From Bacteroidia bacterium (GTDB lineage: Bacteria; Bacteroidota; Bacteroidia; Bacteroidales; Prolixibacteraceae), in contig JAPLDT010000012.1 in assembly GCA_026391315.1 (NCBI GenBank), positions 1-45,787 on the forward strand: DNA of 45,787 nucleotides, given 5' to 3'. Both the position numbers and the translations under genes were made by a program. The number at the start of each line of letters is the position of its first letter. The stretch's first letter is position 1. Positions 1,093-39,740 of the stretch are shown in pieces. A model generated the notes under the pieces. The model ran no database searches and was not told where the DNA came from. It was given only the letters and a program-made list of their open reading frames with translations.

Positions 1093-4080
1093 TCAGGAGC
1101 GAACTTCTGATCTTCCATAGAGCAAAGGAACGATGATCTCTACGATCGTACCGGGATTCTGAAGACCTGGTGACCGTTGCCTGTAGTTAACGCTTGTTTC
1201 TATACCGTACTTTTGGCTGAGAAGTACCAACCTTTTTCGGGTAATGGTCATGCCTAAATTCAAATGTTTTTCACTTTGAGAAACATATTTTTCGGCATTT
1301 TGGATACCTATCCCGGAGTCCTCAACGGTTATTTGAAGTGATTTTTCATCTTTTAATCTGAATGTGATGCCAATAATCCCTTTCTCCTCGAGGTTTGCGA
1401 TACCGTGCCAGATCGAGTTTTCGACAAAAGGCTGGATGATCATGGAAGGGATTAAGATGTCATCTGACTCAACGGCTTCATCAATCTCAATGAAATAGGA
1501 GAATTTATTCTCCATCCGCAGTATCTCAAGATCGAGGTAGTTTCTTAGACGATCGACCTCCTCTTCGAGATTGACTGTCGAAGTATCTATGGCATTAAGG
1601 TTTTGCCTGATCAATCTTGCAAATTGCGAGAGGTAAACGCCTGCTTCATTTGGTTTGTTGTGGAGAAGATAGTTTTGAATCGACCCCAGGGAATTAAAAA
1701 TAAAATGAGGGTTCATCATAGCTTGCAGAGACTTTTGCTCCAATAGGATCATTTGATGTTCCATCTGGCGCCTGCCCAGTTCTATGTTTTTTCTTCTCAA
1801 TACGACAAGGAATGCAATTCCTGTAAGAAATAACATGAGAATGAAATAAAACAGCGGATGTTGCCAGATTGTTGCTTTAACAGTAATTCCAAACGCTACA
1901 GGTTCGCTCCACGTGGAGGCAGGTTTTCTGGCGCGAAGCAAAAAGGAGTATTTACCCTTGGGAAGATTTTGCAGCACAACATTATTCCCCTTGACAAAGG
2001 TCCAGTCGCCATCGGCACCCTCTAATTTATAGGAGTAGATATTGGGACTGACAGAATAATTGATGCTACCAAATGAAATGTTGATCCGCTGACCGCTAAC
2101 GGACGATATCACCCCGTTTTTTACCCGGTTCTCTTTTTCGTTGATCTGTAAGGACTGGAAATAAGGAATGGGCGAATAAACGCTTCTGCTGTTCAGATCG
2201 GAATAGGGTATTGAAGTCAAACCGTCTTCACTGGCGATAAATAATTTCTTGTTGCTAAATAGAATACCGTGTATGGAATTGAAGTTGATATCGATCAGGT
2301 TCAGGAGAACACCCTCCTTTTTTAGGATATTTAAAGGATTTTTGCATACGTAAATATTCCTGGAAGTGGCTATATATAAGGTGGAATCATGATAGACGAA
2401 ATGTTTGATCTGCATATCTATCGGTTGTTCAAATGCGGCGGATAGGTTAACTAGTTTTTTATTGGCATATAAAAAGAGACTGTCGCCTTCGATGTTGAAT
2501 AATTCGGTTTTCTCGTTTAAATTAAGGTGTCCCAAAATTTTTTTATAGTTAAAGTAAGATAGTTCTTCGTACTCATTAGTGGTTTGGTTTTGATAGATAT
2601 AGTTCTTCTTCGCATTGACAATTAGGTTGTTATTGGTATTGTAGTAGATGTTGGAAATTTGTTCACCGGGTCCCCCATATTTCATTTTTCTAAAAAACTG
2701 ATCGCTGGAAATTATGAAGTAATAATACCGATTATGTGAAGCGATTTCATTTTTTTCTTTGTTGTAAATAAGGCTATGCAATGCAATCGGAGACTGGCTT
2801 ACTCTCTCGGCGCTAATTTTTTTTTCTGATTGATTGAAATGGATGCCCTCCAGGACAAATGGCCGTTTACTTGTTTCACCTACTAATAAAGTACGGTGGT
2901 CCACTTGCAACAACTGATTGAACGACTTTTCGGTTTTCTGAAAATCCAGCTTAAACAAATTATTGTCTTTCAATAAGTAAACCAATTTGCCATTTGTACA
3001 CCAAAAGGCTGCACTGTCGTATTGACAAATGGCAGAAATTCCGGAATTTTCAAAAATACCACGCTCTAAGTGTTGATGGTGGTCGAAAAAGGGGCTGATT
3101 TTGTAAACACCCTCCTTCAATGAGCTGATCCATATATTTTTTTCATGGTCCTGTATGATCGTTTTTGCATCATTGATATCGAAGTGATAGACTATAATAC
3201 CCTCTTTGAAGCAATAGACCCCTTTATCGTATGTTGAAATCCATAAGAAGCCATTCTCATCCTCAAGAATGGATGAAATCATTTCAGCCCCTGTTCTGCT
3301 TCTAATAGGCGCTATTTTGTCAAATGTTATTTCATCATTAAATCTCTTTATCTCAAATTTTGTCTTTTCGTTTTCCCTGACTACGATGTATTTGCAGTTG
3401 GTTGAGGAAGTAATAACCTCTCTGAATCTGAATGAACTATTCAGTTGAACAATTTTTCCTTTCAAATCTTTGGTTGTGAGACATCCGGCCGGTGTCCAAA
3501 AAAGAAATTCGCCATTCGCATTCTTTTTCATATAAAGAATGGACATTGCTTGCTGTTTGTATGGTTGTACATTGGATTTAAAAAATACTGATGGTAATTT
3601 GTATTTTCTTATATGATTCTGGGGATCGAGCGCATGAATCAGACGATTGGGATTATCATAGAAGTAAAGAGTATGACTCTCATCTTCATAAAGTTGGCGA
3701 AAGTAAAAATCACTTTTCAGTGAATCAAGAAAGGGGGTATTTTTTTCATTGTGTATGAAATTATCCGAATAGAAATTGAGGGAAGCATTGGAGTGGAAGA
3801 GCCATATCCTGCCGTAAGAATCCTCTTTGATATCAGTAATATCGTTGCTGCTAAGTCCATCCTGTTTTCGATAATAGGTAAATTTGGATCCGTCATACCT
3901 TGCTATACCAGAATCCGTTGCAAACCAGATGAATTTTTTGCTGTCCTGAAAAATCTTGTAAACCTCATTTGATGGAAGTCCTTCTGAGGTTGTGAAGTGT
4001 TGAACAAGAGGACTTTGTGCCGATGTATTGGTTAGGGCATATAGGAGAATAAACAGTGATAATAAAATTTTTTCTTTCAA
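1093..4080 (-). CDS. Sensor histidine kinase: secreted beta-propeller, Y_Y_Y domain, LytS-type kinase
   Basis: 995 residues. An N-terminal signal sequence (KEKILLSLFILLYALTNTSA) is followed by about 700 residues of ligand-binding propeller repeats with motifs such as FWFATDSGIARYDG and WISTYDKGVYCF. Next come a Y_Y_Y domain (about 665-745), one transmembrane helix (about 755-775), and a His_kinase domain with the phospho-acceptor His near residue 792 in NPHFIFNSLGSIQNY and an ATPase part with PFVENSIWHG and EDSGIGI. It senses an outside signal and phosphorylates the LytTR regulator encoded immediately upstream. The start is TTG: the upstream regulator stops one base before it and no ATG precedes the signal peptide, which suggests translational coupling. 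The ligand is unknown; no receptor or polysaccharide genes are adjacent. Confidence 0.93.
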   Translation of the reverse strand: MKEKILLSLFILLYALTNTSAQSPLVQHFTTSEGLPSNEVYKIFQDSKKFIWFATDSGIARYDGSKFTYYRKQDGLSSNDITDIKEDSYGRIWLFHSNASLNFYSDNFIHNEKNTPFLDSLKSDFYFRQLYEDESHTLYFYDNPNRLIHALDPQNHIRKYKLPSVFFKSNVQPYKQQAMSILYMKKNANGEFLFWTPAGCLTTKDLKGKIVQLNSSFRFREVITSSTNCKYIVVRENEKTKFEIKRFNDEITFDKIAPIRSRTGAEMISSILEDENGFLWISTYDKGVYCFKEGIIVYHFDINDAKTIIQDHEKNIWISSLKEGVYKISPFFDHHQHLERGIFENSGISAICQYDSAAFWCTNGKLVYLLKDNNLFKLDFQKTEKSFNQLLQVDHRTLLVGETSKRPFVLEGIHFNQSEKKISAERVSQSPIALHSLIYNKEKNEIASHNRYYYFIISSDQFFRKMKYGGPGEQISNIYYNTNNNLIVNAKKNYIYQNQTTNEYEELSYFNYKKILGHLNLNEKTELFNIEGDSLFLYANKKLVNLSAAFEQPIDMQIKHFVYHDSTLYIATSRNIYVCKNPLNILKKEGVLLNLIDINFNSIHGILFSNKKLFIASEDGLTSIPYSDLNSRSVYSPIPYFQSLQINEKENRVKNGVISSVSGQRINISFGSINYSVSPNIYSYKLEGADGDWTFVKGNNVVLQNLPKGKYSFLLRARKPASTWSEPVAFGITVKATIWQHPLFYFILMLFLTGIAFLVVLRRKNIELGRRQMEHQMILLEQKSLQAMMNPHFIFNSLGSIQNYLLHNKPNEAGVYLSQFARLIRQNLNAIDTSTVNLEEEVDRLRNYLDLEILRMENKFSYFIEIDEAVESDDILIPSMIIQPFVENSIWHGIANLEEKGIIGITFRLKDEKSLQITVEDSGIGIQNAEKYVSQSEKHLNLGMTITRKRLVLLSQKYGIETSVNYRQRSPGLQNPGTIVEIIVPLLYGRSEVRS

Positions 4081-4081
4081 G

Positions 4082-4876
4082 TTAGTCTAGTGATTTGGTG
4101 AAATGTTTGATGGCGTCCCTGAAGTCATTCAATCTTCTTCTTGAAATACTCAAAGTAGTCCCTTCGATTAAAGTAACAAAATTGCCCTGGTAACTGGAAT
4201 AAGCCTTCAGGTAATTTAGGTTGATAATGATCGATTTATGTATGCGGAAGAAATCGGGCTGGTCAAGAATTTTCTCAAAATCACCCATGGTCCTGGTTGC
4301 TACAATTTTCTTTAAACCGGACAGGTGTATGATGGTATAGTTACTGTCTGCTTCAAGATAGATGATGTCTGAAGTATTGACAACCTGAAATCCGAACTGC
4401 TCAGAGACAGTTATCCTGGTAAGGTTCTTGAACTCATGGCTGATATTTTCGCTCAGGTTTCTCAGCGAATCCTGATAGGTTTGCTTTTCCTGTTCACGGC
4501 TTTGCAGCATTTCGTAATGGTGTGCTGCCTTGGAAACCGCTTCAATAAGATCAAGTGGTGTAATAGGTTTTAACAGATAGTCGATGGCACTTGCTTTGAG
4601 TGCACGCAGTGCATAATCTTCGAATGCAGTAACAAAAATAATGCAATAATTTTCTTTGGGAATAGTCGTAAGGAAAGTAAATCCATCCTCCTTCGGCATG
4701 GAGATATCCAAAAAAATAAAATCGATGGCATGTAATTTAAGAAGTTCACGAGCCTCTGCAGCAGAGGAGGCTAATGCAACAACTTCCACCTCTTTGCAAT
4801 ACTGAGATAATAGCAATTCCAGTACTTCACGAACATGTCTTTCGTCATCGACGATGAGGGCCCGGTATTTTTTCAT
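4082..4876 (-). CDS. LytTR-family response regulator
   Basis: 264 residues from the ATG at 4876 (MKKYRALIVDDE). A longer frame to 4927 exists but adds 17 unlikely residues before the canonical receiver start. The receiver domain (1-120) has the acidic pair D10/D11, phospho-acceptor D57 in FIFLDISMP, the conserved T in VTAFEDYALRAL and K in YLLKP. A LytTR DNA-binding domain occupies about 165-260 (FGFQVVNTSDIIYLEAD, then FFRIHKSIIINLNYL). LytTR proteins bind DNA by beta strands and control targets near their kinase partners. It is transcribed before the kinase with a one-base gap, so the two form one unit. Confidence 0.95.
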   Translation of the reverse strand: MKKYRALIVDDERHVREVLELLLSQYCKEVEVVALASSAAEARELLKLHAIDFIFLDISMPKEDGFTFLTTIPKENYCIIFVTAFEDYALRALKASAIDYLLKPITPLDLIEAVSKAAHHYEMLQSREQEKQTYQDSLRNLSENISHEFKNLTRITVSEQFGFQVVNTSDIIYLEADSNYTIIHLSGLKKIVATRTMGDFEKILDQPDFFRIHKSIIINLNYLKAYSSYQGNFVTLIEGTTLSISRRRLNDFRDAIKHFTKSLD

Positions 4877-5164
4877 CAGAAAACAACTGTATTTTTTATT
4901 GGCAGGATGGAATTCCCTATCCGCCAACTGACGGATTTGATTGTGTTAAAAAAAATATTCCTGGTCGTTTTATAAAATCAAATATACCTCAAAATTGCAA
5001 GATAATAGGGGAAATTGATTAAAAAGAGCGATCTTTTTCGTGAATGGTCGTTGTCATGATAGAACGGTAGTGAATAACTTTTCAATTCAGTTCCGGATCT
5101 TTTAAATTGGCTATTCCCGGCGGGATAGATCATATTCCAATATTCTGTGGAATCCAGATTCAAA

Positions 5165-8004: not shown

Positions 8005-9954
8005 CTAACTCTTCAGCAGATTTTCAATATCTGTCAGGGCAATGATAGAGATGATCTTCCTTCCGGCTGGCGAGAATCCGGGCGATTGACAGGCGAAAAG
8101 TTGGTTGAAAAGCGAGACCATCTCTTCCTGCTTAAGGGGGACGCCGTAATTTATGGCAGAGGATTGTGCCAGCACCAATGCCAGCTGTGCCTTGATCTCC
8201 TCCATCAGATCGACCGGACGATCCTGAAAGGAGGCTATGACTGCCTCTACCAGCTCTTTGGCATCCAGGTGACTCAGTACACCGGGAGTGCCATCAATAT
8301 AAAAATGATGCTCTTCCCCGGGCCTAATATCAAATCCAAGCTGATGCAGTTCTTCCCGGAGTGCATTCAAAATTTCCGCATCAGCCGCATTCAGCTCCAA
8401 AACCGGTGGAAAAAGTTGACGCTGACTGGCAGCAAGATGAGAATTGAAATTCTGCATAAAATTTTCGTACAGAATCCTGGCATGGGCTTCCCGCTGATCG
8501 ATCACCATCAATCCTGATTTGACGGGGGTAAGCAGGTACCTGTTTTTGAGCTGCATAAAATTGGCCGACTGGTACTCCTGCTCACTACCCAGCGAATGAG
8601 TTCCCTGCCAATTCTCCGTCTCCCCATCTCCCCGTCTCCCAGTCCCCCCGTCTCCCCATCTCTCCGTCTCTCCGTCTCTCCGTCTTTCCGTCTCTCCATC
8701 CCTCCGTCTCCCAGTCTCCCAGTCTCCCAGTCCCTCCTTCTCTCCGTCCTTCTGATTCTCCATTCCCTGATAAAGTTTCTCCCAATGGCCGGTTTGGCTG
8801 CTCTCAAGGCCATAATTATTCCGGTTACCCGGATAGCTCTCAGGCTGAAATGGGTTGTAATGACGATTGATCTCTATTTCAGGAGGAGCAAAACTGCTTC
8901 CCCTACCGGGAAGAAGTGGAATTTCGATGGAACCGCGCTGATCGAAATCGATGGTGGGCATGAGGTTGTATTTGCCGATGGCCTCCCTGACGGAGGCGCT
9001 GAGGATGTGCCAGATGGCCTGCTCGTCTTCGAATTTGATCTCGGTCTTGGTGGGGTGGATGTTGATATCAATGGTAGCAGGATCAACTTCTAGGTAGAGA
9101 AAATAGGAAGGGATGGCATCCGATGGCAGGAGGCGCTCATAGGCTTGCATCACCGCCCGGTGAAAGAATGGATGCTTCATGAAACGGCCGTTCACGAAGA
9201 AGAACTGCTCGCCAAAGCTTTTTTTAGCAAACTTCGGCTGACCGATGAATCCGGTCAGTTTGACCAGGGTCGTCTCCGACTCTACTGGGGTCAGACTCTG
9301 GTTAATCGTTTTGCCGAAGAGGCTAACGATCCGTTTCCGGATATTCTCTGAAGGAAGTTCGTAGACCGGCGCCTGGTTGTGAAAGAAGGAGATAGAAAGT
9401 TCAGGATTTGCGAGGGCGATCCGTTGTATTTCGGTGATGATGTTTTTTAATTCGTAGCTATTGGATTTCAGAAATTTACGTCTTGCCGGTACGTTGAAAA
9501 AGAGATTCTTCACCGAGAAATTGGAACCCTCCGGACAGTGGTCGGTCTGCTGCTTTTGCAAAACGGAGCCGAGGATATGCAGAAAAGTGCCAAGCTCCTC
9601 GCCCTGTTGACGGGTGCGCAACTCTACCTCTGCAACCGATGCAACCGACGCCAGCGCCTCCCCCCTGAAACCCATGGTACGGATCGAAAAGAGATCGTTG
9701 GCCTCGTGAATCTTGGAGGTAGCATGACGCTCGAACGACATACGCGCATCGGCCGGCGACATCCCCTTGCCGTTGTCAGTAACCTGGATGAGCGTACGGC
9801 CGGCATCCTTGACATTGACGGTGATCGCATCGCCTCCCGCATCGATGGCATTTTCGACCAGCTCCTTTACCACTGAGGCGGGGCGTTGGATAACCTCGCC
9901 GGCAGCGATCTGGTTGGCAACGGAGTCGGGCAAAAGGCGGATTATATCTGACAC
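8005..9954 (-). CDS. mutL: DNA mismatch repair protein MutL
   Basis: 649 residues from a GTG start (SDIIRLLPDSVANQIAAGEV). The N-terminal GHKL ATPase has VVKELVENAIDAG, DNGKGM and GFRGEALASV. A linker of about residues 335-470 contains an 8-residue-period repeat (see 8613-8752). The C-terminal dimerisation domain follows. MutL couples mismatch recognition by MutS to strand removal. The usual endonuclease motif DQHAxxExxxxE reads DQREAHARILYE here, and the CPHGRP and ACR motifs are also not recognisable (SPAGRK, AQSS), so nicking activity looks lost or altered. It stands alone on the minus strand with a short AT repeat upstream. Confidence 0.97.
   Translation of the reverse strand: MSDIIRLLPDSVANQIAAGEVIQRPASVVKELVENAIDAGGDAITVNVKDAGRTLIQVTDNGKGMSPADARMSFERHATSKIHEANDLFSIRTMGFRGEALASVASVAEVELRTRQQGEELGTFLHILGSVLQKQQTDHCPEGSNFSVKNLFFNVPARRKFLKSNSYELKNIITEIQRIALANPELSISFFHNQAPVYELPSENIRKRIVSLFGKTINQSLTPVESETTLVKLTGFIGQPKFAKKSFGEQFFFVNGRFMKHPFFHRAVMQAYERLLPSDAIPSYFLYLEVDPATIDINIHPTKTEIKFEDEQAIWHILSASVREAIGKYNLMPTIDFDQRGSIEIPLLPGRGSSFAPPEIEINRHYNPFQPESYPGNRNNYGLESSQTGHWEKLYQGMENQKDGEKEGLGDWETGRRRDGETERRRDGETERWGDGGTGRRGDGETENWQGTHSLGSEQEYQSANFMQLKNRYLLTPVKSGLMVIDQREAHARILYENFMQNFNSHLAASQRQLFPPVLELNAADAEILNALREELHQLGFDIRPGEEHHFYIDGTPGVLSHLDAKELVEAVIASFQDRPVDLMEEIKAQLALVLAQSSAINYGVPLKQEEMVSLFNQLFACQSPGFSPAGRKIISIIALTDIENLLKS
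8613..8752. repeat. Octanucleotide-type repeat inside mutL
   Basis: About 140 bases built from variants of GTCTCTCC / GTCTCCCA / ATCTCCCC. Three octamers equal 24 bases, so the MutL product gains an 8-residue period (WETGRRRD, GETERRRD, GETERWGD, GGTGRRGD) at about residues 400-447. The same phrase type occurs outside genes at about 24191-24310. Confidence 0.9.
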
Positions 9955-33487: not shown

Positions 33488-33718
33488 ATGAAGGATCGCA
33501 ACAACCTGAAATTGTTTTTTGTATCCGTATTGTTGTTGATTCCCGTTTACAAGAAGCATTTTACCCAGGAAGAGGTGAAGGCCATTGTCGCTTTTTATGA
33601 AACCCCTGCCGGGAAAAAATTGGCGGAAAAGACCCCGATGGTCACCATGGAATCGATGCAACTCTCCCAGACATGGGCCATGTCACTGATGGGAAAAATA
33701 CAGGCCTATCTTAACTGA
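33488..33718 (+). pseudogene. Truncated DUF2059-type exported protein
   Basis: 76 residues. A signal-like start (MKDRNNLKLFFVSVLLLIPV) runs directly into the C-terminal half of DUF2059: KKHFTQEEVKAIVAFYETPA, GKKLAEKTP, ESMQLSQTWA. Full DUF2059 proteins have roughly 80 more residues between signal and this block. The frame is open, so it could still make a short exported protein, but an internal deletion is the simpler reading. It sits at the left edge of the peptide island. Confidence 0.6.
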
Positions 33719-33796
33719 TTGGGGCAGAGTAACTACATAGTTTGTCTTTTCAACACTAAACCAACTTAATATGAGCCACAACAAATTCGTTTGAAA

Positions 33797-33868
33797 GGCC
33801 GCACCGGATCCCAACACCCTGCTGCGTCGCGAAAACTTGCCGGGTATATGCTGCTCACCGGTGCGGCC
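33797..33868. repeat. GC-rich 11-bp inverted repeat before the peptide gene
   Basis: GGCCGCACCGG (33797-33807) and CCGGTGCGGCC (33858-33868) are perfect reverse complements with 50 bases between. The surrounding 33780-33915 block is GC-rich within AT-rich sequence. It contains broken reading frames, one ending in LELSIFQEQTLGG then stop (33875-33916). Confidence 0.7.
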
Positions 33869-33981
33869 AAGAAGTTGGAACTTTCCATCTTTCAGGAGCA
33901 GACCTTAGGCGGTTAATCCAAGCCTGCTTGAGGTAAATATTTTGGGACGAAAATAGTGTTAAAATTTTAAAATGAACTGTG

Positions 33982-34164
33982 ATGAAAGAATTAAGTTTTG
34001 AGAAGATGGGAAACGTAAGTGGAGGAGAAGTATCTGGTGTTTGGTATTTAATATGTGAAAGTAATATGTATTGGTTTTATTCTTATGCTAGTTGCCTAAA
34101 TGATTACGAATATTTACGTATGAGGGGCGAAGCCTGTTATATTTCATATGGCTCGTATTGGTAA
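33982..34164 (+). CDS. Double-glycine leader peptide precursor (bacteriocin/RiPP-like)
   Basis: 60 residues from the ATG at 33982; a GTG one codon earlier is possible. Leader MKELSFEKMGNVSGG has the pattern hydrophobic-x3-hydrophobic-x2-hydrophobic-x-GG recognised by C39 peptidases. The predicted core is 45 residues with three cysteines (core positions 10, 23, 37) and 13 aromatic residues (3 Trp, 9 Tyr, 1 Phe), ending SYGSYW. An odd cysteine count means one may be free, dimerised or modified. The cognate C39 exporter lies 3.4 kb downstream on the same strand. The role (toxin or signal) is inferred; the core matches no family I can name. Bacteroidetocin-type and GG-Bacteroidales precursors have similar leaders, but similarity of the core is not claimed. 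Confidence 0.8.
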   Translation: MKELSFEKMGNVSGGEVSGVWYLICESNMYWFYSYASCLNDYEYLRMRGEACYISYGSYW

Positions 34165-34186
34165 TAATGAGCAAGGGAGCAAAAAT

Positions 34187-34263
34187 GGAAGGTTTTAAGA
34201 ATTTTAATTTGTAAAAAATTATGACAGTATTTTAATACAAATAAACAATGCTTAGAACCTTCC
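34187..34263 (+). terminator. Intercistronic hairpin (attenuator or RNA stabiliser)
   Basis: GGAAGGTTTTAAG (34187-34199) pairs with CTTAGAACCTTCC (34251-34263), 12 Watson-Crick pairs plus one G-U, with a 51-base loop and a T tract (TTTTT) shortly after. It stands between the peptide gene and the transporter genes, where peptide operons often have partial terminators that keep precursor mRNA abundant. Confidence 0.65.
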
Positions 34264-34298
34264 CTAACTTTTTGTATTACAAAAAAACAAATTATTAA

Positions 34299-35045
34299 AT
34301 GATTTTAAGCGATTTTATGGAGCTTAAGGTAAGAAATATTACTGTTTGCAATAATAAGATTAATATAGTCGAGAATTTGTCATTCAGCATAAAAACTGGA
34401 GATGTGTTAGGGCTAATTGGACCAAATGGATGCGGCAAAAGCACGCTGATGAAAGCAATGATTGGTTCATTATCAAAATCTGGGGATTCTAATTTGGTGG
34501 TTCTAAATAGTGAAATTGTTAAAGATAAGGATGATTTAACTTTTGGCTTTGTCCCTGAAGATCCGATTCTGTATGACTATATGACAATTGTTAAGAATTT
34601 TCTTGTTACTTCAGTTTCAAAGGGGATTTATGATAATCTTGACGAGATTTATAAAATTATTAGTATTTTAAAACTGGATCATCTCTCAACTAGAAAAGCT
34701 AGGAGTCTATCTCAAGGAGAGAAGAAACGATTATCAATTGGGTTAGCGTTAATTGGCAATCCCGATGTCTTAATTCTTGATGAGCCGCATAATGGGTTAG
34801 ATAATGATGGCATTTCCATTTTGAGAACGATTATTAAGGCTAAGTCCAAAGATCATATAATAATTTTGTGCAGTCATTATTTCAGCGAGATCGAAGCTCA
34901 TTGTAATCAAATTTTAGCGCTAAATAAAGGTGAAATATTCATCAACGATACAATGAGTTCTGTACTTATGCAATATCATTCAATTGAAAAGCTGTTTAAT
35001 AGTTTGATAAGAAATCCGAATAATGAAAAGAATCTTAAGTTTTGA
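34299..35045 (+). CDS. ABC transporter ATP-binding protein
   Basis: 248 residues from 34299; an ATG at 34317 (MELKVRNITVCNN) is an equally good start. Walker A GPNGCGKST (41-49), signature LSQGE (137-141), Walker B VLILDEP (157-163) and H-loop His193 are intact; the Q-loop position has Glu (FVPEDP), common in efflux-type ATPases. It powers the ABC-2 permease encoded next, whose start overlaps its stop by 23 bases. Such pairs give self-immunity or efflux beside bacteriocin genes. DNA is clearly AT-rich (for example 22 of 60 bases G+C at 34681-34740). Confidence 0.92.
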   Translation: MILSDFMELKVRNITVCNNKINIVENLSFSIKTGDVLGLIGPNGCGKSTLMKAMIGSLSKSGDSNLVVLNSEIVKDKDDLTFGFVPEDPILYDYMTIVKNFLVTSVSKGIYDNLDEIYKIISILKLDHLSTRKARSLSQGEKKRLSIGLALIGNPDVLILDEPHNGLDNDGISILRTIIKAKSKDHIIILCSHYFSEIEAHCNQILALNKGEIFINDTMSSVLMQYHSIEKLFNSLIRNPNNEKNLKF

Positions 35046-35778
35046 GTTGATAAAAATACTAAACCCATTATCGCTGATTTATTGGGTTATTTTTTCAGTT
35101 ATATTTACGATCACTAGTTGTCATGAGCCACAATTATTTAACATGATGTTTGGTTCAAGTTTCAGGTTCGATGAAGACCTAATTCTAAGTACCATTTTTA
35201 CTACGTCTTATTATAAATATGGGCTTGTAATATTTGTTGTATTTATTACTTCGCGTGAATTTGGAAATAATACCATCATTAGGGCAATCTACGAAGGTTT
35301 CTCCCGAAAGGATTTATTTATTGGGAAAGTCACTCTGCTCTTTATCCTTATTTTATTTGTGTTTATTCTCACAAGGATTATTCTCGCTATTGTATTCTAT
35401 ACTAAGGGTTATGGTTCTCAATCTATTATTTTCGTACTTTTCAATTACCATTTTATTATAACAGAACTTTTTTCATGTTTTTTTCTAGGGATGCTTGGAC
35501 TAATGCTTAGTTTGTTAACAAAAAATCCGTATTGGGCTATCGGACTATTTATTATATTAGCATTTCTTGAACGTTTGGCAACCTTATTCCTTCTTTTTAC
35601 CCCTTATGAGGGAATAATAGGTTATATGCCAATTAGCGGAATGATTTATTTTCATAAATTTCTTAGGTTTGGTGATTTAGGATTACTCTATCTTATTTAT
35701 ACATATTTTCTTCAGATAATTTTCATGGCTATAATTTACATGCAATATATGAACATAACATGGTTAAGAAAGCGATAA
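35023..35778 (+). CDS. ABC-2-type permease, six helices
   Basis: 251 residues with six hydrophobic helices (about 13-31, 64-80, 98-125, 137-168, 172-195, 222-245) and no large soluble domain. The opening MKRILSFELIKILNPLSLIY and the helix-loop REFGNNTIIRAIYEGFSRKD (the coupling region) fit the ABC-2 fold. It overlaps the ATPase gene by 23 bases and the next gene by 19, so the three are translated together. Substrate unknown; immunity against the neighbouring peptide is the leading inference. Very AT-rich (15 of 60 bases G+C at 35401-35460). Confidence 0.85.
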   Translation: MKRILSFELIKILNPLSLIYWVIFSVIFTITSCHEPQLFNMMFGSSFRFDEDLILSTIFTTSYYKYGLVIFVVFITSREFGNNTIIRAIYEGFSRKDLFIGKVTLLFILILFVFILTRIILAIVFYTKGYGSQSIIFVLFNYHFIITELFSCFFLGMLGLMLSLLTKNPYWAIGLFIILAFLERLATLFLLFTPYEGIIGYMPISGMIYFHKFLRFGDLGLLYLIYTYFLQIIFMAIIYMQYMNITWLRKR

Positions 35779-36323
35779 TTATTCAGGTCATAATATTAGG
35801 GCTGCTGGCAATAAAAACAGTCAATCATGATTTTTTTGATGTTCGACTAAAAAATGCACAAAAAGAACTTGATTTTTGGCAGCATGTTAGAAAAGTTGCT
35901 GTGGATACTGCTTTCTTTAATAACATTGATCTTTCAAGTGGAAGATTCATAATTATTGGATGGGGATCAGATAGCAGTGAAGCCTTTCCATTATTTAGCG
36001 AAATAGTAAAAAACCAACAAATATTTGGTTCGTATAAAATTTTAGCAATAAGTCCGTTCGAACAGAGGAAAAGTGATGCAAAGCGTGTGGCTCCTTTTTC
36101 TGGTGCCATAACTTTTAAATACAATGAGATTGATATAGATAAACTGATAAGAGGTATTCCATTTACTACGATTCAGGAACACAACGAAAAGGCAATAAAA
36201 GCTAAAGCTGGTAAGTTTGATATGACACTTGATTATCCTGTCGTTATTATACTGAATAGAAACATAATAATTGTGGCAGATAAAAAAGTCATTGATTTGA
36301 CAAGGATTGCTTTGCCTTTATAG
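35760..36323 (+). CDS. Single-pass exported protein of unknown family
   Basis: 187 residues. N-terminal hydrophobic helix (KKAIIIQVIILGLLAIKTV) and a predicted extracytoplasmic domain of about 160 residues. A strand-loop FIIIGWGSDSSEAFPLF (about 63-79) is placed like the active-site loop of thioredoxin-fold proteins, and DYPVVIILNRNIIIVA resembles a cis-Pro strand, but the protein has no cysteine at all. A cysteine-free thioredoxin-like fold, an immunity protein or an accessory subunit of the ABC-2 pump are all possible. It overlaps the permease gene by 19 bases. Confidence 0.75.
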   Translation: MVKKAIIIQVIILGLLAIKTVNHDFFDVRLKNAQKELDFWQHVRKVAVDTAFFNNIDLSSGRFIIIGWGSDSSEAFPLFSEIVKNQQIFGSYKILAISPFEQRKSDAKRVAPFSGAITFKYNEIDIDKLIRGIPFTTIQEHNEKAIKAKAGKFDMTLDYPVVIILNRNIIIVADKKVIDLTRIALPL

Positions 36324-36385
36324 TCAAAATAAACATTAAATATTATAAAATTAAAAACAGAAATTTAGATACCTAAAAGTTCATT

Positions 36386-37042
36386 ATGCATGTTCAGATA
36401 CAAGTTGAGATTAATAATTTTAAAGTCTGGAAATTATTTTTGCTTATCACTGGTTTCACATTCTTATTAGCTTTTTCGATTAACACTCTCTTTTTAACCG
36501 AAGGATTGTATTACCAGACCTTCGGTGAGAAGTTGGCTGTAGATAGGATTACTAAAATGATTGAAATATCTCAGAAATGGCAATGGATTGGTTATGTATT
36601 CATTACCATCATTCTTTTGATACGTGTAGGTTTTACTGCAATTTGCCTGTACATCGGATGTCTTTTGGCTAATATTCAGGTCAAGTTCAAAGAGCTGTTT
36701 AAAGTCGCATTGTTGGCAGATTTTGTTTTTCTATTGGCCGGGATCACAAAACTTGTAATATTGGTTTTTTTCAAGAATGTAAGCAAGCTGGTTGATTTGC
36801 AGTTCCAACCGCTATCGCTTATGGAATTGTTTAACCGAAACTCTGTCGACACTTTATTTATTTACCCCTTTTCGCTGATAAGTGTTTTCGAATTGCTGTA
36901 TTGGCTGGTGCTTGCCTGGTTGCTGGCCCGGGTACTTGAAAAGCCGTTGGGCTATTCACTTAAAAGGGTAGCTTCCTCTTATGGCACAGGCCTGTTGCTG
37001 TGGGTCTTGTTCATGATGTTTTTAACTGTAAACCTGACTTGA
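36386..37042 (+). CDS. Five-helix membrane protein, function unknown
   Basis: 218 residues with hydrophobic helices at about 16-38, 66-90, 105-128, 155-183 and 199-216. I do not recognise the family. It is 62 bases after the previous gene, and its TGA overlaps the next ATG by one base (TGATG), so it is coupled to the thioredoxin-like gene and the exporter. It may be a membrane partner of the exporter or a receptor for immunity. Base composition is intermediate between the AT-rich front and the exporter. Confidence 0.8.
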   Translation: MHVQIQVEINNFKVWKLFLLITGFTFLLAFSINTLFLTEGLYYQTFGEKLAVDRITKMIEISQKWQWIGYVFITIILLIRVGFTAICLYIGCLLANIQVKFKELFKVALLADFVFLLAGITKLVILVFFKNVSKLVDLQFQPLSLMELFNRNSVDTLFIYPFSLISVFELLYWLVLAWLLARVLEKPLGYSLKRVASSYGTGLLLWVLFMMFLTVNLT

Positions 37043-37575
37043 TGCGAAATTTTGTAAAGTATCTGGTTGGGTTTGTTTTGCTTGCAATAGCAGGCTGGCT
37101 GATTAAACATACATTCCATAGCTACCGGGTGAAGAAGGAGGCGACAGAAAAGATTCAAACGTTGCAGCATTGCTGTTTCGAATCGCTGCACGGGGGACAA
37201 ACCTGCCTGGATGGTTTCAATCCCAACCAGCCAACGGTAATTATTTATTTTAGCCCTGAATGCGAACATTGCCAATACGAAGCTACAGAAATTGGAAGGC
37301 AACCCGAAAGGTTCGCGAAAGCCAATATGATCCTGATCACCCCTGATGATTCTGCAAAAAGGATTGAAGCTTTTGCCGATAAGTACAAGCTCTGGCAGGT
37401 CGATAACATGGTCATACTTTATGATAGAAAGTCACAATTCAGAAAATATTTTGGCACGTCCGTTTTTCCTTCTGTTTTCATATATGGTACTGACAAGCGG
37501 TTGCTGAAACAATTTATTGGGGAGGTAAAAATGGAGACAGTGCTAAAGATTATTGATGGTAATGAGAAATTATGA
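37042..37575 (+). CDS. Membrane-anchored thioredoxin-like protein (CEHC)
   Basis: 177 residues from the ATG at 37042; a longer frame from 37000 overlaps the preceding gene and is rejected. N-terminal anchor (KYLVGFVLLAIAGWL). The active site is in IYFSPECEHCQYEATEIG (C74-x-x-C77), and the cis-proline region is FPSVFIYG. Three further cysteines (44, 45, 55) lie in the linker. TlpA/thioredoxin relatives work in the periplasm on disulfides. Beside a three-cysteine peptide and a C39 exporter, making or proofreading the peptide's disulfide is the natural inference. It overlaps the exporter start by 4 bases (ATGA). Confidence 0.88.
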   Translation: MRNFVKYLVGFVLLAIAGWLIKHTFHSYRVKKEATEKIQTLQHCCFESLHGGQTCLDGFNPNQPTVIIYFSPECEHCQYEATEIGRQPERFAKANMILITPDDSAKRIEAFADKYKLWQVDNMVILYDRKSQFRKYFGTSVFPSVFIYGTDKRLLKQFIGEVKMETVLKIIDGNEKL

Positions 37576-39740
37576 AAGAACATAACCTAATCAAAAAGAC
37601 CTTCACCAAGCAGTACAGCCAGTTCTATTGTGGGTTGGCATGCCTTACCTCCATTGTCAAGTACCATGGCGGGGAGATTACCCAGGAGAAGCTCAGGGAG
37701 ACCAGCGGCACCACGCTGCAAGGAACCAGCCTCCTTGGACTTTACCAGTCGGCCCAAAAGCTGGGATTCGAAGTTAAGGGTTACGAAGCCGATTTCGGAA
37801 ACCTAAAAAAGATGGAGGCGCCTGTAATCCTCCATATCCTCAAGGATGGGAATCTAGAGCATTATGTCGTCTGCTATGGATACAATGCGGACAGGTTTAC
37901 CATAGGGGATCCGGGTATCGGAATTTTGGAATACACCGAAGAGGAGCTGGAAGCCGTTTGGAAATCGAAAGCGATGCTTGTACTCACTCCTGGCGAAGGG
38001 TTCAAAAGAAAAAAAACGGAGTCGAAAAACCAGTGGAGCTGGATCAAGGGGTTAATCAAAGAGGATGTTCCAGTACTCTCTGTGGCCGCTTTGATGGGGG
38101 TCGTATTGTCGGTCCTTGGGTTTGCAGTGGCCATCTACACCCAGAAACTGATCGATAAAATCCTGCCTTCCGGCGATCGCAAACTCCTGTTCACAAGCCT
38201 GGGGATTTTTGTCGCTATTTTGCTGGCCAGGGCTTTTATCGGGTATATCAGGGGCATCATGCTAATCAGACAAAGTAAGGATATGAACATCCGGGTAGTA
38301 TCCTCCTTCTTTGGAAAATTACTGCTCCTGCCTGAGAGTTTTTTCGATAGTACCTCCACGGGCGACATGATAGGCCGGCTGAACGATTCCCAGCGGATCC
38401 AGCGGGTGGTGATCAGTTTGAGCAGCAATATCCTGATCGATGTATTGGTGATCATTTCTTCCCTGTCCTATATTTTTATGCTCTCCCTGTCCACAGGAAT
38501 GATCACTCTGTTGGCAATTCCTGTTTTTGGGTTGCAGGCCTGGAGATACAACAAAAGGATCATCAACAAGCAGCGGGAGGTGATGCAAACCTATGCCCTG
38601 ACGGAGAGCAAATACATCGATACCATCCAGGGAATCCGGGTCATCAAATCCGGGAACAAGGAGTCCCTGCTGGCTAAATCGGTACAGGCTGTCTACAATT
38701 TCTTCCAGGAGAAGTCCTTAGAGCTTGGCCTTCTTGGTAACAAAATCAACCTGTGGGCACAAGCTGGAAGCGTGGTAATTCTTTCGGGGGTGATCGCCTG
38801 GAGCTCCTTTCTGGTTTTGGGAAAAGAGCTGCTTTTGGGCCAAATGATGGCCATTGTCTCCATAGCCGGAAGCCTGGTCACCTCCGTAATCAACACTGCC
38901 ATGGCCAACATCCAGTTTCAGGAGGCAAAAATAGCCTTCGAACGTATGTACGAATTTTCCGCCGCAGAACCAGAGTATGCATTAGAAGAGCAGACGCCGC
39001 AGGCCAAAGTGGATATCCAAACCCTTGAGCTGAAAGAGCTGAACTTCAGGTTTCCTGGTAAGGGCCTTTTGCTGAAGGGGATCAGCATGAAATTCGAAAG
39101 GGGGAAGAGTGTCACCATCTTTGGCGAGATTGGATGCGGTAAGAGTACCCTGATGGCAGTTCTCCAAAGATTTTATCCCTTCGAGTCGGGCGAGATCTGC
39201 ATCAATGGTTCCGATTGGTCCAAAATGCCAGTCCCCGAATGGCGGAACCACATCGCGGTGGTTTCGCAGCACGTCAAACTTTTTAACGGTACCATTCTGG
39301 AGAACATCTGCCTGGAGGAGAAACCCGATGTGCAGCAAGTGGTCGATTTTTGCATCGAAACGGGCCTCGATCCGTTTATCAGGGAGTTTCAGCAGGGGTA
39401 TGCCACCATCATCCACGAGAACAGCGCCAACCTCTCGGGCGGGCAGCAGCAACTGATCGCCCTGGCCCGCGCCCTCTACCGGAAACCACAGGTACTGTTG
39501 CTGGATGAAGCCACGGCCGCCATGGACCGCCGTTCGGAACAGTTCGTACTGAAACTCCTGCAGCAGAAAAAAAAGGAGATGATGGTGGTTTTTGTGACGC
39601 ACAGGGTTCAGTTGGCACGACATACGGACTATATTTACGTTATTGAAAACAAGCAAATAGCTGCTTCCGGAACCCATGAGGAGATTGTCCTTTGCAATAG
39701 TTTGTATCGTGAAGCTTTTGAAGAGATCGTATTGGCCTGA
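37572..39740 (+). CDS. Peptidase-containing ABC exporter (C39 PCAT)
   Basis: 722 residues. The N-terminal C39 peptidase has Gln14, the nucleophile Cys20 (QYSQFYCGLACL), His97 (LEHYVVCYG) and Asp113 (IGDPGIG). A six-helix ABC exporter domain spans about 165-455. The ATPase has Walker A FGEIGCGKST (about 519-527), signature NLSGGQQQ (about 620) and Walker B LLLDEATAAMD. PCATs cut double-glycine leaders and export the core. All catalytic residues are present. No HlyD-like adaptor or outer-membrane channel gene is beside it. The gene is GC-rich in places (43 of 60 bases at 39421-39480), unlike the start of the island. Confidence 0.96.
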   Translation: MKEHNLIKKTFTKQYSQFYCGLACLTSIVKYHGGEITQEKLRETSGTTLQGTSLLGLYQSAQKLGFEVKGYEADFGNLKKMEAPVILHILKDGNLEHYVVCYGYNADRFTIGDPGIGILEYTEEELEAVWKSKAMLVLTPGEGFKRKKTESKNQWSWIKGLIKEDVPVLSVAALMGVVLSVLGFAVAIYTQKLIDKILPSGDRKLLFTSLGIFVAILLARAFIGYIRGIMLIRQSKDMNIRVVSSFFGKLLLLPESFFDSTSTGDMIGRLNDSQRIQRVVISLSSNILIDVLVIISSLSYIFMLSLSTGMITLLAIPVFGLQAWRYNKRIINKQREVMQTYALTESKYIDTIQGIRVIKSGNKESLLAKSVQAVYNFFQEKSLELGLLGNKINLWAQAGSVVILSGVIAWSSFLVLGKELLLGQMMAIVSIAGSLVTSVINTAMANIQFQEAKIAFERMYEFSAAEPEYALEEQTPQAKVDIQTLELKELNFRFPGKGLLLKGISMKFERGKSVTIFGEIGCGKSTLMAVLQRFYPFESGEICINGSDWSKMPVPEWRNHIAVVSQHVKLFNGTILENICLEEKPDVQQVVDFCIETGLDPFIREFQQGYATIIHENSANLSGGQQQLIALARALYRKPQVLLLDEATAAMDRRSEQFVLKLLQQKKKEMMVVFVTHRVQLARHTDYIYVIENKQIAASGTHEEIVLCNSLYREAFEEIVLA

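Follow-up and report, generated by a model that had tools for sequence, protein, structure and literature searches.

A probable bacteroidetocin-type locus in a Prolixibacteraceae genome whose peptide core differs between close relatives

Introduction

The closest described relatives of the locus reported here are the bacteroidetocins (class IIf; Coyne 2019, PMC6671954). The locus is a seven-gene island at positions 33,982-39,740 of a 45,787-nucleotide stretch (contig JAPLDT010000012.1 of assembly GCA_026391315.1, forward strand) from a Bacteroidia bacterium of the family Prolixibacteraceae, which we call the window. According to the part of the 2019 report available to us, bacteroidetocin regions encode a five-transmembrane (TM) protein, a peptide with a double-glycine (GG) leader, a thiol oxidoreductase and a C39 transporter. 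The peptide, the TM protein and the oxidoreductase are each required for full activity, transposon insertions that abolish activity hit the exporter gene among others, and four genes are enough to obtain active bacteroidetocin from E. coli. Further members, from four classes, carry at least two Cys residues, Bacteroidetocin C with its uneven Cys number has modest activity, and a figure legend indicates that extra genes also occur in some of the regions. Whether release is by secretion across the outer membrane or by lysis was left open by the authors (all PMC6671954). The published peptides kill Bacteroidota and target BamA, as stated in the available portion of a later paper (PMC8546649). At the level of literature listings, searches on DUF2059, C39, thioredoxin, Prolixibacteraceae bacteriocins and class IIf brought up nothing nearer than the 2019 report.

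Here we describe how the window compares with these systems. We propose that its island is a gene cluster that probably makes and exports a small antibacterial peptide, similar in kind to clusters described in gut Bacteroides, and that it is probably a bacteroidetocin-type (class IIf-like) bacteriocin locus in which the peptide core and probable ABC protection genes are exchanged against a fixed export and oxidation module.

Results

The island contains a gene set like that of bacteroidetocins

In a first-pass annotation the island had been described as a GG-leader peptide of 60 residues followed by genes that include an ABC-2 pair, a thioredoxin-like protein with CxxC and, at the end, a complete C39 exporter. 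The open reading frames (ORFs) together with Pfam and NCBIfam profile searches, by which we assigned the window proteins to families, agree with this. The features, all on the + strand, are as follows.

33982-34164, +: GG-leader precursor peptide (leader 33982-34026, 45-residue core 34027-34161, 3 Cys)
34187-34263, +: intercistronic hairpin, possible attenuator between the peptide and ABC genes (from the fold z-score of 34164-34298)
34299-35045, +: ATP-binding cassette (ABC) transporter ATPase, candidate immunity protein (PF00005, 4.3e-26)
35023-35778, +: ABC-2-like membrane permease, 251 amino acids (aa), no family match
35760-36323, +: 187-aa protein with hydrophobic N-terminus, candidate accessory or immunity protein, no family above cut-off
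36386-37042, +: MEM218, conserved 218-aa membrane protein with about five long helices, no family match
37042-37575, +: thioredoxin-like thiol oxidoreductase carrying a CEHC motif and a hydrophobic anchor at its N-terminus (AhpC-TSA, 1.5e-7)
37572-39740, +: C39 peptidase / ABC exporter (Peptidase_C39 1.2e-33, ABC_membrane 2e-23, ABC_tran 2.2e-30)
33488-33718, +: 76-aa remnant of a DUF2059-type secreted protein (alignment to the relative L021)
33776-33938, +: structured leader RNA element (P1, 33797-33807 with 33858-33868; P3 hairpin, 33902-33934)

The description of the six genes at 34299-39740 as mostly overlapping also holds, as 4 of their 5 junctions overlap and the sole gap is 36324-36385. 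The island had been called uncharacterised, with two proteins of no recognised family. However, a TM protein, a thiol oxidoreductase, a C39 exporter and a GG peptide together form the set published for bacteroidetocins, as far as the available text goes (PMC6671954), and there are in fact three proteins without a family (the permease, the 187-aa protein and MEM218), the last of which is widespread in the phylum.

The peptide ORF starts at ATG 33982 (GTG 33979 is an alternative start) and its GG-type leader, MKELSFEKMGNVSGG, is 15 aa long, where bacteroidetocin leaders have 15-16 aa; its 45-aa core with 3 Cys falls within the range of their mature peptides (35-50 aa, two or more Cys). A C39-ABC exporter and a thiol oxidoreductase are likewise common to both. 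MEM218 is likened to the bacteroidetocin TM protein by its approximately five predicted helices, that is, by described features and not by sequence. Its AlphaFold2 model was of high confidence (pLDDT 91.4), with about five long helices, and had no fold match in the PDB at E <= 0.001. A MEM218 profile reached locus L263 from the same taxonomic order (E 5.8e-16), in which the genes run TM protein, 4-Cys GG peptide, oxidoreductase and C39 exporter, the published bacteroidetocin order. On the basis of the gene set, the roughly five-helix MEM218 and L263 with its published order, we regard the island as a bacteroidetocin variant, and the modelled MEM218 as the probable counterpart of the TM protein.

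In contrast to the order TM protein, peptide, oxidoreductase and C39, the window has peptide, ABC ATPase, ABC-2-like permease, 187-aa protein, TM protein, oxidoreductase and C39. The ABC-2 pair and the 187-aa protein, which separate the peptide from the TM protein, and an acidic, aromatic 3-Cys core are seen in the window but not in bacteroidetocins. A structured RNA leader also precedes the window locus and may be a further difference from the published loci. Gram-positive class IIa/IIb bacteriocins with C39 exporters are similar in their GG leader, exporter and disulfide-capable core, whereas the window has an envelope oxidoreductase and a TM protein, belongs to a Gram-negative host, and lacks the class IIa motif YGNGVxC in its core as read by eye. 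Type I secretion operons carry an HlyD-type adaptor next to the ABC exporter. As the first-pass annotation had said, none is adjacent here; there was no match on the window contig and 17 HlyD_3 places elsewhere in the genome. Its point that a partner encoded elsewhere would be required to cross the outer membrane stands, on a search that covered HlyD but not outer-membrane channels.

Peptide cores and following genes differ at one site in close relatives

Within the genus, the module was present in 3 of 8 genomes (G000, G003 and G004), while in G001, G006 and G007 a Cas6-like gene is directly followed by an M16 gene, and likewise in G002, for which a shorter stretch was compared. DNA identity among the window, G004 and G003 was 84-87% from the RNA element to the start codon, 71-81% in the 45-nt leader and 49-52% in the core. 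For the window and G004 the values were 84% from the element to the ATG, 81% in the leader and 52% in the core, the last being the level of the shuffled window core against the G004 core (52 +/- 2%). G003 has a third, different core at the same site. Downstream of its core, G004 carries a DUF5687 permease and another ABC in place of the ABC pair and the 187-aa gene, and identity to the window resumes at MEM218 (76%), the oxidoreductase (83%) and C39 (87%). The core thus differs in three species and the following genes in at least two, the downstream boundary being drawn from one contiguous relative (G004), as the G003 contig ends shortly after the core.

We infer from these sequence comparisons that the core and the following genes probably form a cassette swapped between strains, bounded on one side by the leader and on the other by the beginning of MEM218 or a point close to it, and that recombination would be the obvious means of exchange. 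The available part of PMC6671954 does not describe an exchangeable cassette. Three copies at one locus, L111a/b/c, were 92-98% identical upstream, 74-82% in the leader and 48-56% in the core, and across family peptides (n = 34) mean identity was 0.59 for the leader versus 0.31 for the core. Two pairs of peptides have nearly identical cores (0.98-0.99), the same allele in different loci. The GC content was 0.30-0.33 in the peptide core, the ABC genes and the 187-aa gene, 0.38 in MEM218, 0.41 in the oxidoreductase gene and 0.50 in C39.

MEM218, oxidoreductase and C39 exporter form a recurrent module

MEM218 homologues, the window's own genome included, were found in 10 of 61 genomes, in 34 of 140 genomes of the family and in 28 of 395 of the phylum; their loci include Prolixibacteraceae metagenome-assembled genomes, Draconibacterium aestuarii, Maribellus maritimus, Aquimarina, Kordia, Capnocytophaga catalasegens and Flavobacterium circumlabens, a range from which Prolixibacteraceae also emerges as the most likely family of the window. 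We examined 66 loci, 65 of which had a MEM218 match. Some of the 65 share a genome or stem from near relatives, several contigs end early, some loci (L025 and L128) hold broken genes, and others, such as L256, have the membrane protein without the rest. The thioredoxin was found in 52, the C39 peptidase in 50 and both in 48; a same-strand GG-type ORF was found in 40, counting a doubtful hit without Cys in L259, and all three in 36. The joint presence of the module in 48 loci, with a GG-type ORF in 36, suggests more than a chance association, and a neighbourhood conserved in relatives, whose absence the first-pass annotation had named as telling against it, does exist. Within 6 kb of MEM218, 60 GG-type ORFs lay on the same strand and 1 on the opposite strand by the same filter, our own pattern devised after the peptides had been seen.

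The CxxC motif was kept in all 38 oxidoreductase homologues examined, which were drawn from loci selected for possessing one. Cys, His and Asp-Pro motifs, which we take to be functional in the peptidase, are seen in the C39 domain. Among 56 distinct Cys-containing peptides, 43 have two Cys, 9 have four, 3 have three and 1 has one, and in 42 of the 43 two-Cys peptides one Cys lies in the first third of the core and the other in the last third; these figures are built on the filter output from MEM218 loci, with one Cys-free peptide dropped and loci without MEM218 (e.g., G005) excluded. An odd third Cys, as in the window, may give one free thiol or a dimer. In the Aquimarina locus L152 (4081-7803), the same module is adjoined by a row of extra GG peptides, which contain several Cys and whose leaders are longer and rich in lysine; they are apparently a second precursor family.

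In the mechanism that we propose for the island, the C39 domain would cleave the precursor after GG and the ABC part would export the 45-residue core to the periplasm, where in the envelope the membrane-anchored CxxC protein and MEM218 would oxidise its cysteines. By whatever route, the core would leave the cell and act on other Bacteroidota, and the ABC-2 pair and the 187-aa protein would be peptide-specific protection genes. Killing, its target, immunity and disulfide formation in the window peptide go beyond the gene content and are what we infer. If this scheme is right, bacteroidetocin-type loci would be more than broad gut toxins without immunity. In environmental Bacteroidota the cassette at one fixed site would vary, and a candidate immunity pump would go together with the core. 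The missing immunity of the class would then become directly testable, and a large set of new disulfide-type cores would be available.

Several observations weigh against a bacteroidetocin-type locus. At the same site, G005 has a DUF2059 gene and a Cys-free GG-type ORF with neither a MEM218 match nor such an exporter. By our filter, 25 of the 65 MEM218 loci are without a GG peptide, and the thioredoxin is missing in 13 and the C39 domain in 15. The window core is an outlier among most relatives (3 Cys, isoelectric point 4.3, grand average of hydropathy -0.16, 12 Tyr/Trp), and its gene lies upstream of the inserted cassette and not between the TM protein and the oxidoreductase. Moreover, according to the available text, the published bacteroidetocin loci yielded no immunity gene (PMC6671954).

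Candidate immunity genes and alternative readings

This last point also favours the view that the ABC-2 pair and the 187-aa protein have nothing to do with immunity and belong to an unrelated or a second export system acquired by the locus, a view we consider unlikely, if the least so of the alternatives. The nearest NCBIfam scores of the ATPase, GldA and the lantibiotic-protection ABC TIGR03740, fit it as well, as both are far below cut-off (TIGR03740, 139 bits versus a curated cut-off of 309.75). The pair resembles ABC-type bacteriocin immunity pumps of the TIGR03740 kind in this ATPase score, in a separate membrane subunit and in an adjoining bacteriocin-like gene, but differs from them in the sub-threshold score and in a permease without a family. 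Other ABCs, however, occupy the like place behind different cores, in G004 (ATPase 31% identical, with the DUF5687 permease) and in L123 (another ABC with a 475-aa protein), and some loci with like cores have a small following gene in common (L110/L115, L114/L138 and L120/L128, the last two close orthologues). For the ABC-2 pair, protection of the producer is the role that we consider most likely.

No homologue outside the window's own genome was found for the permease in the 140 family genomes searched or for the 187-aa protein in the 395 phylum genomes. The PADLOC matches obtained with the ATPase appear to reflect generic ATPase similarity, and the other four proteins scanned gave none. The 187-aa protein folded poorly from its single sequence (pLDDT 38). 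A thioredoxin fold was considered for it but is no more than a lead, given the poor model and a profile comparison probability of 1.35% (P 0.038).

A secreted signalling peptide is a clearly less probable alternative: kin would sense the mature peptide that the C39 exporter releases, and the ABC-2 pair would serve its export or import. Signalling systems, too, use GG leaders and C39 exporters. The acidic, aromatic and hydrophilic window core, set against the hydrophobic cores of most relatives, would suit such a role, and ORFs at 1093-4927 look by eye like a sensor kinase and a LytTR-type regulator, although about 29 kb away. On the other hand, no sensor was recognised among the seven island proteins, core identity falls to that of shuffled sequence where the leader is retained, and in G004 the following genes change with the core in the fashion of toxin/immunity pairs. 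The first-pass annotation had left open whether the system is bacteriocin-like or serves signalling, and had pointed to GG cleavage by C39 exporters, to ABC-2 pairs as frequent immunity factors and to thioredoxin-like proteins that act on disulfides; the bacteriocin-like part of this is the best-supported reading, with these functions as likely assignments, and signalling is its lesser rival. A ribosomally synthesised and post-translationally modified peptide, with its modification enzyme elsewhere in the genome, is very improbable, for although the GG leader and the weak scores of radical SAM- or lantibiotic-type precursor models for some relatives' peptides would fit it, every Pfam and NCBIfam family score of the window peptide and seven relatives was below curated cut-offs, and, as annotated before, the family searches found no modification enzyme in the seven-protein island (outside it, the window was inspected only by eye, and no genome-wide search for such an enzyme was made).

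The peptides nearest to the window core in hydropathy and charge are those of L126, L127, L129 and L131. These four loci (e.g., L126:7624-8964) form a subtype with Tyr- and Cys-containing cores and a cassette of an approximately 440-450 aa protein and a diverged membrane protein; the former is CarboxypepD_reg-like in L126, the one scanned.

A structured RNA leader precedes the peptide gene

The RNA element at 33776-33938 scored 145.7 bits with our model R1, of which it is itself one of 19 training sequences, and had no Rfam match at E up to 1. In the family we found 43 copies in 23 of 140 genomes and 4 of 23 genera (21 candidates per genome scored), two of them at further places in the window's own genome (C39:61169-61331 and C99:125075-125235). 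In a sample of the order, with 10 candidates per genome scored, it was seen in the own genome alone of 295, at least 3 of the others being family members. GG peptide genes lie downstream of 19 of the 43 copies, and because of this count we rejected the idea that the leader is specific to GG peptides. The distance from the element start to the start codon was 205-213 nt in 14 measured GG-peptide copies. In 13 of the other 24 copies a start codon lies 179-245 nt from the element start and the N-terminus looks signal-peptide-like by eye; in the rest it is more distant or unclear.

P1 is nearly invariant across the copies and therefore no covariation can be demonstrated for it. In the P3 hairpin, both partners had changed at least once in 7 of 8 pairs. 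Its covariation score was 0.352, versus 0.208 +/- 0.020 in shuffled alignments (0 of 500 reached it), and exceeded that of every slid version; this helix had been chosen from the alignment in which it was counted, where 22.5% of cells are unpaired. The mean fold z-score of the P3 segment was only -0.95 over 42 copies, 20 of which were below -1. In several copies the P3 loop is complementary by eye to short flanking stretches on both sides, a candidate for the pairing that a switch would need.

We tentatively combine these observations into a wider picture that is possible but doubtful as a whole. The RNA leader and the leader peptide could be a fixed docking block before the fixed export and oxidation module, new cores with their protection genes could be inserted by recombination in the conserved block to give a polymorphic small-bacteriocin platform in Bacteroidota, and the new, switch-like RNA could time the release of exported proteins. 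The leader, without an Rfam match, is common to GG peptide genes and to other, mostly exported-looking, genes.

Neighbouring features and minor observations

The intercistronic hairpin noted before is borne out by the segment 34164-34298 between the peptide and ABC genes, which folds well (-27.3 kcal/mol, z -3.80); a simple terminator scan did not call it a terminator. The DUF2059 remnant at 33488-33718 is shortened in frame and is without 71 internal residues present in the L021 copy, which is a PF09832 protein (4e-22). DUF2059-like genes are recurrent neighbours of many GG peptides among the related loci and may be a further accessory part of them.

Two near-identical loci of the same assembly, L031 (G000:C92) and L032 (G000:C81), encode a further C39-ABC protein of 729 aa and also a protein of 168-169 aa, reflecting either a duplication or a strain mixture. 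Elsewhere in the window, a tandem repeat with a period of 32 (or, on another reading, 8) was seen at 8616-8748 within a mutL-like ORF (8005-9954, - strand), and L265 has a GDWETGR-type repeat similar to it.

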